64,000 nt of DNA, taken from positions 1-64,000 of the forward strand of contig VFGW01000009.1 in NCBI GenBank assembly GCA_009392295.1, read 5' to 3'. Below are positions 46,953 through 53,981 of this stretch, one piece after another; the stretch's first letter is position 1, and each line of letters begins with the position of its first letter. The notes below the pieces were generated by a model. That model did no database searches. It was not told the DNA's origin and was given only the letters and a program-made list of their open reading frames with translations. The DNA is from SAR202 cluster bacterium. Lineage in GTDB: Bacteria > Chloroflexota > Dehalococcoidia > Lucifugimonadales > GCA-2719675. Both the position numbers and the translations under genes were made by a program.

Positions 46953-47498
46953 ATGAAGGTTGTATTCTTAGAAGATGTTCCTGGTGTTGCTAATGGCGGA
47001 GAAATTAAAAATGTTAAACTCGGATTTGCTAGGAACTATTTATTACCAAAAAACCTAGCTACCCCTGCAACAGCAGAATCTTTACAGAGAATCAGCTCTC
47101 TAAAGAAAAAATCTGATGAAACAAGGTCACTTTTAACCAAAAACATGAATGAATTGTCAGAAAAACTAAGTGGTCAAAAAATTTCAATAGAAGCCAGGTC
47201 AGGAGCCAACGGAAAATTATTTGGTTCAGTTACTGATGCCATGATCGCATCTGAATTAAACAACAATTTCGGTTGTAAGTTAGATAGAAAATCTATACAA
47301 ATTTCAGAATCAATTAGAGAAGTTGGAATACAAGAAATACCAATAAATTTATTCCAAGATATACATACAACTATAAATCTGATTGTACATCCAGTTGGTA
47401 CCGATCCATCTGAAATTGAAAAAATGGTTGCAGAAAAACAAACTAAAGAAAACCAACCTGAAGATCCTGATATAAATCCATCATCAGATCAAGATTAA
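46953..47498 (+). CDS. rplI: 50S ribosomal protein L9
   Basis: Large-subunit protein L9, which spans the L1 stalk base. The N-terminal domain is typical (MKVVFLEDVPGVANGGEI, LGFARNYLLPKNLA), followed by the long connecting helix and the C-terminal domain with GKLFGSVTDAMIA. After about residue 155 it has an acidic, Pro/Asp-rich tail not found in most L9 proteins (usual length about 150; 181 here). AGGAAGG precedes the ATG. A DegT-family gene follows 20 bp later with its own good ribosome site. Confidence 0.94.
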   Translation: MKVVFLEDVPGVANGGEIKNVKLGFARNYLLPKNLATPATAESLQRISSLKKKSDETRSLLTKNMNELSEKLSGQKISIEARSGANGKLFGSVTDAMIASELNNNFGCKLDRKSIQISESIREVGIQEIPINLFQDIHTTINLIVHPVGTDPSEIEKMVAEKQTKENQPEDPDINPSSDQD

Positions 47499-47518
47499 AT
47501 ATTAGAAGGAGAATACAT

Positions 47519-48823
47519 ATGACTAAAAAATTAGCAATCCATGGCGGTACACCAGTAGTATCAAAGGCTAATATTTCTTCCCTTGGAACTGGTAGAGTTT
47601 CTTCTGATTTTCCTGCACCTTATAGTTTCGACGAGAAAGATATTGCTGCAGTCACAAGTGTTTTGCAAAAAGCTAATCAAGACGGAACTAGCATGACTAG
47701 AGGTCCTGAACAAAGGCAATTTGAAAAAGACTTTGCAGATTTACATGATTCAAAATACGGAATTTTAGTCAACTCTGGAACATCAGCATTTAACACAATT
47801 TATGGTGCAATTAATCCTGATCCTGGTACAGAAGTAATTTGTACACCTTGGACCTCTGCTGGCAGTGTAGTTGGTGGAGTTTTCCATGGAATGGTACCTG
47901 TTTTTGCCGACATTGACGAAACATTATGTATTGACCCAGAAGACGTAGAAAGAAAAATCACATCTAAAACTAGGGTGATAATTGCTGTTCATATGTTTGG
48001 AAACGCATGTGATATGGATAGACTGCAAGCGATTGCTGACAAACACAATTTATTTCTGGTTGAAGATTGCAGTCAAGCAACCTTTTCAGAATATCAAGGA
48101 AAAGTTGTAGGATCTATGGGTGATATTGCTGGATGGAGCTTTAGTGGAAAACATATGACTGGTGGTGGTGGTGGAATGATAACAACCAACAATATCAAAT
48201 TATACGAACGAGGATTTGGATATTCTGATCAAGCTTTAAATAGATCAGATGGTCCTTATAGAGACTATCCATATGTTCATAACTTTTTAGCACAAAATTA
48301 TAAACCAAATGAATTAACCGCTGCTGTTTTAAATGTTCAACTCACAAAAGTTCACGGTTATATTGAAAATAAGATAAGAGATGCTAAAAATATTTTATCT
48401 GGAATTTCAGATATTCCTGAATTAATTCCTCAAAAAGTTCGTCCTGATGACAGGCATACATACTGGAACCTATCAATTATGTTAGAAAAAGATGCTTACA
48501 ATTGTAGTTCAAAAGAATTTGCAAAAGCTGTAGAAGGTGAAGGAATTCCTATAGCTGGACCTTATATAGGTACAGCCACTCCTGGGCAAGGTCCTTTGTA
48601 TAATCATCCAGTTTTTGCTAATTTGGATGCATTTGGCAAAAGCAAATATCCGTTTGACTATAACCGAGACAGACCTGTGGATTACAAACTAACAAAGTGC
48701 CCAAATGGTGAAGATTTAATGGGTAGAGGAATGAATTTTTCTATGAGAGGTAGTTTTACTGAAGAGAATGTTGGAAATATTATAGAATCTATCAGAAAAG
48801 TTTCTGCTCACTATAAAAAATAA
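47519..48823 (+). CDS. DegT/DnrJ/EryC1/StrS aminotransferase (PLP lysine present)
   Basis: A 434-residue PLP sugar- or cyclitol-type aminotransferase. It begins with KKLAIHGGTPVV like AHBA-synthase and scyllo-inosose aminotransferase relatives. NSGTSAF (85-91) binds the phosphate, Asp183 in VEDCSQA binds the pyridine nitrogen, and Lys211 in SFSGKHMTGGGGG is the Schiff-base lysine. A strong GGAGA ribosome site precedes it. The next gene is a tandem paralogue without the lysine. Family members aminate keto-sugars or cyclitols; which one acts here is unknown. Confidence 0.88.
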   Translation: MTKKLAIHGGTPVVSKANISSLGTGRVSSDFPAPYSFDEKDIAAVTSVLQKANQDGTSMTRGPEQRQFEKDFADLHDSKYGILVNSGTSAFNTIYGAINPDPGTEVICTPWTSAGSVVGGVFHGMVPVFADIDETLCIDPEDVERKITSKTRVIIAVHMFGNACDMDRLQAIADKHNLFLVEDCSQATFSEYQGKVVGSMGDIAGWSFSGKHMTGGGGGMITTNNIKLYERGFGYSDQALNRSDGPYRDYPYVHNFLAQNYKPNELTAAVLNVQLTKVHGYIENKIRDAKNILSGISDIPELIPQKVRPDDRHTYWNLSIMLEKDAYNCSSKEFAKAVEGEGIPIAGPYIGTATPGQGPLYNHPVFANLDAFGKSKYPFDYNRDRPVDYKLTKCPNGEDLMGRGMNFSMRGSFTEENVGNIIESIRKVSAHYKK

Positions 48824-48873
48824 TTAATTCCAATTTTTAAATCTCTAATTTCAATACTAATTGATATTTTAAA

Positions 48874-50157
48874 ATGAGAAAAAAATTAGCTATACATGGC
48901 GGCAAACCTGTAACAAAAATTAAGTTTCCAGCTTCTCACCATTTTGGAGATGATGACATTGCTGCCATAACAAAAGTTTTAAAAAAAGCAAATTCTCATG
49001 GTTCCAAACCAATAGAAATTTTACAACGAGGAACTGAACGTCATAAATTTGAGAGAAATTTTTCAAATTTACATGATTCAAAATATGGAATTTTAGTTAA
49101 CTCAGGCACATCAGCTATAAATTCGATTTATGGTGCAATTAATCCTGATCCTGGCACAGAAGTAATTTGTACACCTTGGACCTCTATTGGAAGTGTTTCA
49201 GGTGCAATTTTTCATGGTATGGTTCCAGTTTTTGCCGATATCGACGAAACTCTTTGCATTGATCCCATAGATGTAGAAAGTAAAATTACTAACAAAACAA
49301 GAGCTATAGTTGCTGTACATATGTTTGGCAATCCATGCGATATGAATAAACTTATACAAATAGCTGAAAAATACAACCTTTTTCTTATAGAAGACTGTAC
49401 CCAAGCACATTTTTCAAAATACCAAAACAAATTAGTTGGTTCTATAGGAGATATTGCCGCCTGGGGGTTAAGTGAACATCAACATTTTACTGGTGCAGGT
49501 AATTGTGGCATATTAGTCACAAACAACACAAAATTATATGAAAGAGCTTTTGGATATTCAGATCAAGCTTTAAATAGAGCAGATGGACCTTTTAAAAACT
49601 ATCCATATGTTCATAATTTTCTAGCACAAAATTATAACGCAAATGAATTAGCTGCTTCGATTTTAAATGTTCAATTTTCAAAAGCAATAAAAAATATAGA
49701 AAAAAAAATTAACCATGCTAAAAATATTCTAAAACAAATTTCAGAAATACCTGAATTGATACCACAAAAAGTTAGAAATGGAGATAAGCACACATATTGG
49801 AATATGTCTTTAATACTGAAAAAAAATGTATTCAATTGTGACGCAAATAAATTCGCAGAATCTATTGTGGCTGAAGGAATTCCATTTAGTGGACCATATC
49901 TAGGAACCGGCAAATACCCTTTGGGTCCCATCAATAAACATCCAATATTCACAAACCTAGATGCATTTGGGAAAAGCAAATATCCATTTGATTACAAAAG
50001 AACCAGAGCAGTAGATTATAAACTATCAAAATGCTCTAATGGGGAAGATTTAATGAGTAGAACAATTAATTTCTCGCCTTTAAGCACTTTAACTGAAGAG
50101 AACGTTGAGAATACAATAGAGGCAATAAAAAAAGTTGCTAATTTTTATAAAAAATGA
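48874..50157 (+). CDS. DegT-family paralogue lacking the PLP lysine
   Basis: A 427-residue tandem paralogue of the preceding gene, clearly homologous over its whole length. One 57-bp stretch (47801-47857 versus 49129-49185) differs at a single base. Asp174 (IEDCTQA) and NSGTSAI are kept. The lysine site instead reads LSEHQHFTGAGNCG: counting from either side gives His202 or Gln203, and no Lys is near. In the family, Lys-to-His replacement turns transaminases into PMP-dependent sugar dehydratases (ColD, AscC/E1). It may be such an enzyme or a regulatory partner of the intact paralogue. Confidence 0.87.
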   Translation: MRKKLAIHGGKPVTKIKFPASHHFGDDDIAAITKVLKKANSHGSKPIEILQRGTERHKFERNFSNLHDSKYGILVNSGTSAINSIYGAINPDPGTEVICTPWTSIGSVSGAIFHGMVPVFADIDETLCIDPIDVESKITNKTRAIVAVHMFGNPCDMNKLIQIAEKYNLFLIEDCTQAHFSKYQNKLVGSIGDIAAWGLSEHQHFTGAGNCGILVTNNTKLYERAFGYSDQALNRADGPFKNYPYVHNFLAQNYNANELAASILNVQFSKAIKNIEKKINHAKNILKQISEIPELIPQKVRNGDKHTYWNMSLILKKNVFNCDANKFAESIVAEGIPFSGPYLGTGKYPLGPINKHPIFTNLDAFGKSKYPFDYKRTRAVDYKLSKCSNGEDLMSRTINFSPLSTLTEENVENTIEAIKKVANFYKK

Positions 50158-50173
50158 AATTGGATAATTTAAA

Positions 50174-51100
50174 ATGAGAAACCCATTAAATCGATTAAAT
50201 GTAGGAATAATAACCATGGAAGCAGATCCATGGGAATTAGAAAAAAACTTTAAAAGATTAGAAAAATATACAAGAGAAGCTGTAAATAGGCGAGCAGATC
50301 TAGTAATAGCACCTGAAGCTATTCTAGATGGGTATGCATACGGAGCAGATCACGAAGCCGAATTTAAAAAATTAGCGTCTATTGCTCAAAAAATTCCTAC
50401 TGGTGAATATATAAAAAAAGGGGCAAAACTTGCCAAAGAATTAAAAATTTATTTCATATTCGGATTTTTACAAATTTCAAATAACAAGCTATACAATAGT
50501 GTTGTAATGTTTGACCCTGAAGGTGAAATTATTTCTACATATAGTAAAGTTCACCCAAAAAATGAATCATTTATAACTCCAGGGGAAGAATTGAAAATCA
50601 CTACCACTGATTTTGGGAAAATAGGTTTTTTGATTTGTAGTGACAGAGGAGTTACTGATAATTTTTCTACCCTAGGTGTCCAAGGTGTACAAATAATTTT
50701 CTTGCCAATGGATGGAGACGGAGGTCCCGAAAATATAGATGCTTTAAGGTACAAAGCAATGGACAATCATTGCTGGATTGTTGTTGCAAACACATGGAGT
50801 TGTGCATTAATAAACCCCCAGGGGCAAATAATTTCTCAAAGATATGAATGTGAATGCGTTACTTTACAAAGAATTGACATATACACATATTTATTCGAAG
50901 GAAATGAAACTAAAACAGCATTTTCAGATACCATTTCTGAACCTAGAAGAAAATTTTTAGCAAGAAGACCTGACTTATACAAACCATTAACAGAACCTCC
51001 TGGGGAAAATTCTTATTTTGATTCAGAAGGTCAACCTACGTTAAAAGAAATTAAATCTAGAAAATCATGGAAAGATAATCTTAGAAAAAAGAAAAGATAA
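50174..51100 (+). CDS. Nitrilase-superfamily C-N hydrolase
   Basis: A 308-residue carbon-nitrogen hydrolase with the full catalytic triad: Glu49 (APEAILDGY), Lys125 (TYSKVHPKN) and Cys155 (FLICSDRGV). A second conserved Glu lies near residue 136 (TPGEE). Substrates in the superfamily include amides, nitriles and N-carbamoyl compounds; the lack of a membrane domain and the gap of only 1 bp to the next amidase gene favour an amide or carbamoyl substrate. It follows the DegT paralogue by 16 bp. Confidence 0.88.
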   Translation: MRNPLNRLNVGIITMEADPWELEKNFKRLEKYTREAVNRRADLVIAPEAILDGYAYGADHEAEFKKLASIAQKIPTGEYIKKGAKLAKELKIYFIFGFLQISNNKLYNSVVMFDPEGEIISTYSKVHPKNESFITPGEELKITTTDFGKIGFLICSDRGVTDNFSTLGVQGVQIIFLPMDGDGGPENIDALRYKAMDNHCWIVVANTWSCALINPQGQIISQRYECECVTLQRIDIYTYLFEGNETKTAFSDTISEPRRKFLARRPDLYKPLTEPPGENSYFDSEGQPTLKEIKSRKSWKDNLRKKKR

Positions 51101-51101
51101 A

Positions 51102-52010
51102 ATGAAGTACACATCTACAGATAAATTATATTTTGAAACTGGGCCTGATAATCCACCTACATTGTATGTTGACCCAGGTGAAAAAATAGAAATCCAAACA
51201 CAAATTAACAAAGGACCTTGGGTAGATGACCATCCTAACAAGGAACAATTGAAAAAAAAATTATCTGGTGCAAATCCTTCTTCTGGAGCAATATATATTA
51301 ATGGTGCAACCCCAGGTAACGTTCTAAATGTGTCAATTGAAAAAATTACTCTAGACCCTATAGGGTACACTCAATTTACAAAATATAATCCTCTGATACC
51401 AAATTGGATGTTAATGAAAAATTTATCTAAACAACACAAAATTGTCGAAATAAAAAATGGCCTAATACATTGGGACAATAATCTAAAAATACCAGCCCAA
51501 CCAATGATTGGATTTGTTGGTGTTTCTCCACGATCTACAAGATGGGATAATCGATGGGCTGGAGAATGGGGTGGCAATTTTGATATCCAAGAAATTACTG
51601 AAGGTGCAACAGTACAACTACCTATAAATGTTAATGGTGCTTTATTACACATAGGGGATATGCATGCTATCCAAGGTGATGGTGAGATTTGTGGTGCTGG
51701 TGGCATTGAAGCTGGCGGTAAAGTCATTATAAAATGCTCATTATCTAAGAAACCAAAAAATATGACTTGGCCAAGAATAACAAATAAAACACATATAATG
51801 ACTACTGGGCAAGCTAGACCATCAGATAATGCTTTCAAAATTGCTCTTTCAGAAATGCTACTTTGGCTAGAAGAAGACTATGGCTATTCATCTGAAGATG
51901 CTTACATGTTACTAGCGCAAGTGCTAGAAGCTAGATGTACTCATTTTATTAATCCAACTTTTAGTTATGTTGCTAAATTGAACAAAAAATACCTAAAAAC
52001 TTCAAAATAA
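51102..52010 (+). CDS. Acetamidase/formamidase family protein
   Basis: A 302-residue FmdA/AmdA-family amidohydrolase, which hydrolyses short amides such as formamide or acetamide to the acid plus ammonia. Family patterns are VDPGEKIEIQT, PITGPIYINGATPGN-like GAIYINGATPGN, the HIGDMHAIQGDGEICG block with its metal-binding His/Asp residues, and a C-terminal MLLAQVLEARC. Length is slightly short (family about 320-400). Stacked directly after the nitrilase gene (1 bp gap), it could complete release of ammonia from a two-step amide breakdown. Confidence 0.87.
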   Translation: MKYTSTDKLYFETGPDNPPTLYVDPGEKIEIQTQINKGPWVDDHPNKEQLKKKLSGANPSSGAIYINGATPGNVLNVSIEKITLDPIGYTQFTKYNPLIPNWMLMKNLSKQHKIVEIKNGLIHWDNNLKIPAQPMIGFVGVSPRSTRWDNRWAGEWGGNFDIQEITEGATVQLPINVNGALLHIGDMHAIQGDGEICGAGGIEAGGKVIIKCSLSKKPKNMTWPRITNKTHIMTTGQARPSDNAFKIALSEMLLWLEEDYGYSSEDAYMLLAQVLEARCTHFINPTFSYVAKLNKKYLKTSK

Positions 52011-52060
52011 TATATATATCATTATAATAATTCATTCTGCGTAGGTAACAGTAATATCTT

Positions 52061-53005
52061 TTGAAAAAATCGTTAAATCAAAATCCAACATGTTGTGTTA
52101 AAAACAACGAATCAATATCTAGCATTGATGAACGTATCAGTGAACTTGAATCCATACCAGCAAAAAAATTAAACACCAATAATATGGTTAAATTATCTGG
52201 TAAATTTTTAATGGGTTCACGTGATAAAGAAATAATCGAATCTGATGGAGAAGGCTTTATACGTGAAGTAGAATTGAATAGTTATTATATAGACAAAACT
52301 ACTGTAACAAATTCAGAATTTTCAAAATTTGTTACAGATTCAAATTACATCACTGATGCAGAACGATTTGGCTGGTCATTTGTTTTCAATATGTTTATTT
52401 CAAAAAACACCAAGAAAAATGTAACTGAAATTGTACAAGAAACACCTTGGTGGTGGAAAGTAGAAGGAGCAAACTGGAAAAACCCCGAAGGTCCAGGCTC
52501 CTCGATTAAAGACAGGATGGAACATCCAGTAATCCACGTATCCTGGTATGATGCAGTCTCATACGCAAAATGGTCTGGAAAAAGGTTGCCAACTGAAGCA
52601 GAATGGGAATTCGCAGCAAGGGGAGGCTTAATTCAAAATAAATTTCCGTGGGGAAATAATTTAAAAATCCAAGGAAAGCATATGTGTAACATCTGGCAAG
52701 GCAAATTCCCATATATTAATACTAAAGATGATGGATATTTAGGAACTGCACCATCAAAATCATTTAATCCAAACCAATATGGCTTATTCAACACTTCTGG
52801 AAATGTATGGGAATGGTGCAATGATTGGTTCAATATACAAAATAAAAAAAACACATCAAATATGAATGTGTCCAAAATAATGAAGGGTGGCTCCTATCTT
52901 TGTCATGCTTCATATTGTTGTAGATATAGAAATTCTGCAAGGACTTCATCAACACCAGATTCAACTACAGGACATTTAGGATTTCGCTGTGCCGCAAACA
53001 ATTAA
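52061..53005 (+). CDS. Formylglycine-generating enzyme (SUMF1/FGE-type)
   Basis: A 314-residue FGE-sulfatase-fold protein. FGE oxidises a Cys in the CxPxR motif of sulfatases to formylglycine with copper and oxygen. Unlike many SUMF1-domain proteins, this one keeps both catalytic cysteines, Cys281 and Cys286, in GGSYLCHASYCCRYR, and the NTPDS-like segment TSSTPDSTTGHLGFRCA follows. The N-terminus has a TCC pair and no clear signal peptide, so the product is cytosolic. The start is TTG. No sulfatase is coded in this window. The last 17 bp overlap the next lipoprotein gene. Confidence 0.9.
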   Translation: MKKSLNQNPTCCVKNNESISSIDERISELESIPAKKLNTNNMVKLSGKFLMGSRDKEIIESDGEGFIREVELNSYYIDKTTVTNSEFSKFVTDSNYITDAERFGWSFVFNMFISKNTKKNVTEIVQETPWWWKVEGANWKNPEGPGSSIKDRMEHPVIHVSWYDAVSYAKWSGKRLPTEAEWEFAARGGLIQNKFPWGNNLKIQGKHMCNIWQGKFPYINTKDDGYLGTAPSKSFNPNQYGLFNTSGNVWEWCNDWFNIQNKKNTSNMNVSKIMKGGSYLCHASYCCRYRNSARTSSTPDSTTGHLGFRCAANN

Positions 53006-53981
53006 AATAAAACAATTAATCATACTAATTATTCTTTTTTCAACGTTAGCTTCATGCAGCAATAACGACAATGAGAGTGGAAAATGGGAAATAGTACATG
53101 AACAATTACCTGCTGCACTGACTGCTATTTGGGGAATAAATTCACAAGATATATGGGCTGTTGGTGGAAATACTGTAGATAACAAAGGAAGTTTAATTCT
53201 ACATTTTGATGGAGAAAAATGGGAAAGATTGTATTCAAATTCTGATTCAGATCTATGGTGGATTTTTGGTTTTGCAGAAGGACCTATATTTTTTGGAGGT
53301 AGCAAAGGTCTAATACTAAAATATTTTGAAGGCCAATTTGAAACTATGGAAACTCCTGGAGATGCAACAGTATATGGAATTTGGGGAACTTCTGAAAATG
53401 ATTTATGGGCTGTTGGTGGCAATATTATTAATGGTGCATTTGCATGGAGATATAATGGAGAAAAATGGGAAAATGCAGAAAGATTCCCTGCCGGACTTTC
53501 TAGGACACAATCATTATTTAAAGTTTGGGGAGAAAATCCAGAAAAAGTTTGGTTAATTGGAACTAATGGCAAAACAATATTTTTTAATGGTAAAGACTTC
53601 ATTGGTCAAGCAACAAAAACTCAATATCCTTTATTTACAATTCATGGTAATAATGTTTCTAACCCTGTCATTGTTGGTGGATTAGTTAAAGGAGTTATAT
53701 TAGAAAACATTAATGGAGAATGGGTGGATAAATCCCCAAAAAACACCCCCCACTTAATGGGAATATTTAGTAGAAATAACCAATCGTATGCAGTAGGAAT
53801 TAATACAAGCATATTACGCCAAATAAACAATGAACAATGGGGGGAAATTCAGACTGGAATAAAGTCTGAAAAAGGACTCCATTCAATTTGGATCGATGAA
53901 AAAGGCGGCGTATGGACTGTTGGCGGAAATGTTTTAGCACCACCTTTAACTGAAGGAATAATGTTATATAGAAGTCCATAA
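52989..53981 (+). CDS. Exported beta-propeller-like lipoprotein
   Basis: A 330-residue lipoprotein. A hydrophobic signal segment (residues 8-20) ends in the lipobox LASC with Cys23. The rest repeats a block of about 45-55 residues with IWG....D(I/L)WAVGG, W...G and a glycine turn, about five or six times, as in WD-like or Kelch-like propellers; one typical unit is IWGTSENDLWAVGGN. It starts at GTG 52989 inside the FGE gene, so translation is coupled to FGE. It may bind a polysaccharide or protein at the cell surface. No enzyme motif is seen. Confidence 0.8.
   Translation: MPQTIKIKQLIILIILFSTLASCSNNDNESGKWEIVHEQLPAALTAIWGINSQDIWAVGGNTVDNKGSLILHFDGEKWERLYSNSDSDLWWIFGFAEGPIFFGGSKGLILKYFEGQFETMETPGDATVYGIWGTSENDLWAVGGNIINGAFAWRYNGEKWENAERFPAGLSRTQSLFKVWGENPEKVWLIGTNGKTIFFNGKDFIGQATKTQYPLFTIHGNNVSNPVIVGGLVKGVILENINGEWVDKSPKNTPHLMGIFSRNNQSYAVGINTSILRQINNEQWGEIQTGIKSEKGLHSIWIDEKGGVWTVGGNVLAPPLTEGIMLYRSP

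Follow-up and report, generated by a model that had tools for sequence, protein, structure and literature searches.

To our knowledge, the only characterised members of the DegT family that lack the Schiff-base lysine are the His-type dehydratases. In these enzymes, viz., ColD, E1 (RfbH), and SpnQ, a histidine takes the place of the lysine and serves as both acid and base (PMC8987622). Members of the family are dimeric. Most of the active site is built by one subunit, and a loop from its neighbour completes it (PMC8987622). Precedents for a catalytically deficient partner come from serine palmitoyltransferase, whose LCB1 subunit is Lys-less (PMC3794620), and from trypanosomatid deoxyhypusine synthase with its dead paralogue (PMC3663545). 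The window analysed here, a stretch of 64,000 nucleotides from a SAR202 cluster bacterium (contig VFGW01000009.1, forward strand), contains two co-directional DegT-family genes, A and B, both with open reading frames and with 50 bp between them, whose main features are:

47519..48823, + strand: gene A, a DegT-family aminotransferase with the Schiff-base lysine, 434 aa (PF01041, 240.5 bits; K211 in SFSGKHMTGG; AAGGAG-like RBS upstream)
48137..48139, + strand: codon of Ser207 of A, the phosphate-side serine, present in every Lys-type and His-type relative seen (alignments)
48149..48151, + strand: codon AAA of Lys211 of A, the Schiff-base lysine (sequence and alignment)
48874..50157, + strand: gene B, a DegT-family paralogue without the lysine, 427 aa (PF01041, 213 bits; 64% identical to A; DegT fold by AlphaFold2 and Foldseek)
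49459..49509, + strand: rebuilt lysine loop of B, residues 196-212, AWGLSEHQHFTGAGNCG (holding 6 of 9 fixed changes at subfamily-invariant positions, P about 6e-6)
49465..49467, + strand: codon of Gly198 of B, replacing the serine (alignments)
49480..49482, + strand: codon CAA of Gln203 of B, replacing the lysine, between His202 and His204 (sequence and alignments)

Both proteins score far above the curated PF01041 cut-off (19.8 bits) and share 64% identity over 440 columns (BLASTP); they are tandem DegT paralogues, in agreement with the original prediction. A looks like an ordinary member of the DegT/DnrJ/EryC1/StrS aminotransferases, whose solved representatives include Pcryo_0638 (7l7x), KdnA (5k8b), an archaeal sugar transaminase (7b0d), and BtrR (2c7t/5w71). 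B resembles these aminotransferases in its fold and most of its motifs, but its Schiff-base lysine and phosphate-side serine are gone, and its lysine loop is two residues longer than that of A, with two in-frame one-codon insertions. From alignments of 36 rows, AlphaFold2 gave good models of the two proteins (pLDDT 84.5 for B and 84.6 for A; pTM 0.87), and all 50 PDB matches listed in a Foldseek search with the B model are DegT-family or sugar-aminotransferase entries. In the strand-loop-strand that bears the lysine the block means are 94 and 90 in A versus 71 in the B block 201-210, a lower model confidence that would be expected for a rebuilt loop.

The lysine of A is kept as K211 in SFSGKHMTGGGGG, as against WGLSEHQHFTGAGNCG in B, and the loop GWSFS-GKHMT-GGGGG of A has been rebuilt to AAWGLSEHQHFTGAGNCG in B. 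The Schiff-base column is anchored in two ways: the lysine of full-length DegT loops, e.g., SLNYYKTISSGEGG, aligns with Gln203 of B, and so does the position that is His in the E1 structure 3bcx (SFYPAHHITMGEGG) and Lys in the otherwise matching chain 3bb8 (SFYPAKHITMGEGG). The E1 mutant is H220K (review PMC8987622). Gln203 aligns with H220 of E1, and His202 and His204 lie one residue off on each side. The codon at this column is AAA in A (48149-48151) versus CAA in B (49480-49482), and there is no other lysine inside the B loop. Hence, the absence of the lysine, which had been noted as a His/Gln replacement in the second gene alongside a conserved lysine in the first, survives alignment, with Gln203 as the exact residue. 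The serine, which in DegT enzymes contacts the cofactor phosphate and sits five residues ahead of the lysine column in full-length loops, is S207 in A and Gly198 in B; its loss and the two insertions are additions to what had been predicted. The GTSA, EDCxQ, and QNY motifs are retained in B, including Asp174 and Gln177. All other loop-covering DegT proteins examined (Chloroflexota relatives, RfbH/E1 relatives, and 70 viral-contig proteins) have Lys or His at the site and retain the serine; Gln at the Schiff-base column is found only in B and its orthologue.

This orthologue comes from another species in the genus (MAG SP301, contig PBID01000015.1), which has the same tandem pair, the same gene run, and the same B loop (SEHQHFTGAGSCG); both genomes are of marine Chloroflexota. 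Between the two species the orthologues are 92% (A) and 86% (B) identical, with dN/dS values (Nei-Gojobori) of 0.069 for A, 0.137 for B, and 0.037 for the 40-codon segment of B with the loop. B with its altered loop is under purifying selection, and the observation that two intact genes are retained in tandem extends to both species. The B loop codons show synonymous differences between them, and a frameshift or read error, one foreseen way in which the lysine loss might have proved spurious, is thereby excluded; on the dN/dS we likewise reject a pseudogene. Among 98 positions unchanged across 15 Lys-bearing subfamily members, 82 are kept in B, and nine carry a new residue common to both B orthologues. 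Six of these nine changes fall in the lysine loop, which holds nine of the invariant positions (hypergeometric P = 6e-6), a concentration that argues for targeted remodelling rather than decay. By stretch, A and B are 87% identical over residues 66-157, 75% over 213-260, and 53% in the loop.

A search of related genomes for the Lys-minus paralogue recovered it in the second species of the genus; the best matches in 147 order-, 393 class-, and 400 phylum-level genomes (partly overlapping sets) contained no further sequence of the B type. A degenerate DNA pattern of the B loop had no match in viral contigs, and a contig scan with two narrow peptide patterns, which says little about distant relatives, matched the congener only. 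The B-type paralogue is so far confined to this genus among the Chloroflexota genomes sampled; the taxonomic family of the window is represented by only these two genomes in the collection searched.

In both species the pair is embedded in the run rplI - A - B - nitrilase-family hydrolase - acetamidase/formamidase - FGE-domain protein - lipoprotein (50174-53981 of the window after B), with the following genes downstream of B:

50174..51100, + strand: nitrilase-family (carbon-nitrogen) hydrolase, 16 bp downstream of B (PF00795, 114.5 bits; alignment to PH0642)
51102..52010, + strand: acetamidase/formamidase-family protein (PF03069, 104.3 bits; 5ubu, E = 9e-45)
52061..53005, + strand: FGE-sulfatase-domain (EgtB-like) protein of the same run, kept in the second species (PF03781, 254 bits)

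The nitrilase-family hydrolase appears to keep the family Glu, Lys, and Cys (alignment to PH0642); it is distant from Nit2 (2w1v, E = 2e-10) and nearer to PH0642-type enzymes. No NDP-sugar or deoxysugar genes were recognised in the gene run. An AAGGAG-type RBS precedes A (47484-47518 of the window), whereas none stands ahead of B (48839-48873), which, in the same way as the nitrilase gene, begins at TTTAAAATGAGA; this difference between A and B recurs in the second species. Promoter-like matches are at chance level (38 found versus 37.3 expected) and carry no weight here, and a search for Rfam families gave no match. The solved relatives include glutamine:(deoxy)inosose aminotransferases; the 2-oxoglutaramate released by glutamine transaminases is hydrolysed by omega-amidases of the nitrilase family. 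From these relatives and this chemistry comes the reasonable, if unproven, guess of a glutamine-donor transaminase coupled to an amidase; for the pathway as a whole, we infer that the handling of amide or glutamine nitrogen with the downstream amidases is most likely.

Our leading explanation, tentative but to our minds close to an even prospect, is that B might serve A as a partner subunit devoid of the lysine, the two sharing an operon with amide hydrolases. On this view, B would be a copy of A that abandoned covalent PLP chemistry and was retained as its partner. In the proposed A:B dimer, the A half, with Lys211, Ser207, and the Asp, would transaminate, and B would contribute the second-subunit loop NFLAQNY; via its own altered half-site, B might tune stability, substrate choice, or regulation. 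The Asn-Tyr motif completes the site of the neighbouring subunit in the DegT family, and it is contained in residues 213-260 of B, the stretch that is 75% identical to A. As B has altered mainly its own cofactor loop and stays A-like at the second-subunit motif, a partner role is the simplest account. The joint loss of the serine and the lysine fits a half-site that would no longer need ordinary PLP, and a homologous pair with and without the lysine, kept together, occurs in two species of one genus. From these features we infer both a physical complex of A with B and a loss of transaminase activity in B.

LCB1/LCB2 of serine palmitoyltransferase are, like A and B, a homologous pair of PLP-fold proteins in which one member is without the lysine (PMC3794620), but they belong to another PLP subfamily with another reaction, and their complex is known, whereas that of A and B is proposed. 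Within the DegT family, a chain from Serratia sp. ATCC 39006, in PDB entries titled 'heterooligomeric aminotransferase' (8y96-8y98), appears at ranks 13 and 16 when B is used for the fold search; we take this likeness as a lead and not as evidence. A literature search for Lys-less or heteromeric DegT enzymes, including these Serratia entries, found nothing useful.

Several observations count against this explanation. Asp174, Gln177, and GTSA are all kept in B, although a fully dead site could do without them, and the basic residue after the Asn-Tyr motif has changed (NYN versus NYK in A). The absence of an RBS before B in both species means that synthesis in a 1:1 ratio with A is not assured. 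The tandem DegT pairs of this genome also need not be Lys-plus/Lys-minus units, as a second pair has the lysine in both copies. We see somewhat less than an even prospect for the conclusion that A and B form an obligate heterodimeric DegT aminotransferase with one Lys-less and Ser-less half-site or, less likely, that B founds a new Lys-less DegT class with a His-Gln-His motif independent of ColD/E1.

This second tandem pair belongs to the same DegT subfamily (G000:C20:175412-177936; L009:5413-7949) and is also found in the second species (G001:C6:62968-65493; L051). Its second copy is on the longer branch (0.19 versus 0.04), and around it lie, among others, genes for a transport permease and an FAD-binding protein, but not sugar-nucleotide genes.

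First among the alternatives, B could be an independent PMP-dependent enzyme with an origin parallel to that of ColD/E1, either a dehydratase or a catalyst of some other base-needing reaction without an internal aldimine. It would use His202, Gln203, or His204 for acid-base chemistry, and A would perhaps give amino groups or regenerate PMP. Both ColD/E1(RfbH)/SpnQ and B are DegT-family proteins without the lysine. In favour of this reading, two histidines flank the site of B, its loop is strongly selected, and Asp174, Gln177, and GTSA are kept; moreover, tandem pairs of Lys-type and His-type DegT genes do occur in viral contigs (L122, L128, L136). However, the catalytic column of B is Gln and not His, and the serine lost from B is kept by every His-type sequence seen. 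The PMP-dependent 3-dehydratases have His at the site and keep SFxP and, in the RfbH/E1 homologues examined, the GEGG turn, whereas B has Gln203, WGLS with Gly198, and AGNCG. The Cys insert of the E1/SpnQ type is absent from B by alignment, and the gene run has no recognised deoxysugar genes.

The phylogeny concurs: in a maximum-likelihood tree from which the loop columns were excluded, A and B group together (100/100) within a Lys-type Chloroflexota subfamily, with stem lengths of 0.27 for B and 0.10 for A, and the His-type proteins (RfbH and viral) form a clade of their own (99/97) apart from A and B. With B sister to A and the His-type clade elsewhere, the lysine was lost in B independently of the ColD/E1 lineage. 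By family, a ColD/E1-type dehydratase is rejected for B on the residue, the serine, the turn, and the clade, and an independent PMP-dependent enzyme appears to us rather unlikely. The same evidence, together with the lack of recognised sugar-nucleotide genes, weakens one of the two functional proposals of the original prediction, a dehydratase-transaminase unit; the other, an active/inactive heterodimer, seems to suit the evidence better, although it is not proven by sequence.

B might instead be a stand-alone non-enzymatic protein, e.g., a regulator or ligand sensor to which substrate, product, or cofactor would bind without being turned over. A fold and much of a pocket that remain after the loss of the catalytic residues would agree with such a role, but B has no extra or DNA-binding domain and sits within an enzyme operon. 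This also explains the tandem retention with A less directly than a complex would, and we hold it to be unlikely. Far less probable is an ordinary aminotransferase with the Schiff base on another residue: B does have lysines elsewhere, but none in the loop, where the serine is lost too, and those of its lysines that are absent from A and shared with the B orthologue are all outside the conserved cofactor motifs. An artefact or decaying pseudogene is scarcely credible: B does evolve faster than A (86% versus 92% orthologue identity), but its frame is open and its loop identical in two separately assembled species, with synteny kept and the dN/dS at 0.137.

A Gln-type paralogue without the lysine, maintained by selection next to its Lys-plus parent, would be one of two things: part of a DegT heterodimer in which one half is a pseudoenzyme, or another departure from Schiff-base chemistry, independent of the first. 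It also calls for caution in annotation, as both a plain 'DegT aminotransferase' label and the rule that loss of the lysine signifies a dehydratase can mislead.

The similarity between A and B is patchy and differs by species (alignment codons 240-270 in the window at 47519-50157; codons 180-210 and 300-330 in the second species, L056:3653-6281), a hint that the two genes may have undergone gene conversion with the loop left untouched. Pairing of a Lys-plus with a His-type gene, as had been imagined for this locus, exists in phage-type contigs: in three viral contigs (L122:39-2288, L128:2854-5142, and L136:1382-3624), a DegT gene with Lys (SFYGNKT) lies next to another that has His (SFYYGHHMTTMEGG).
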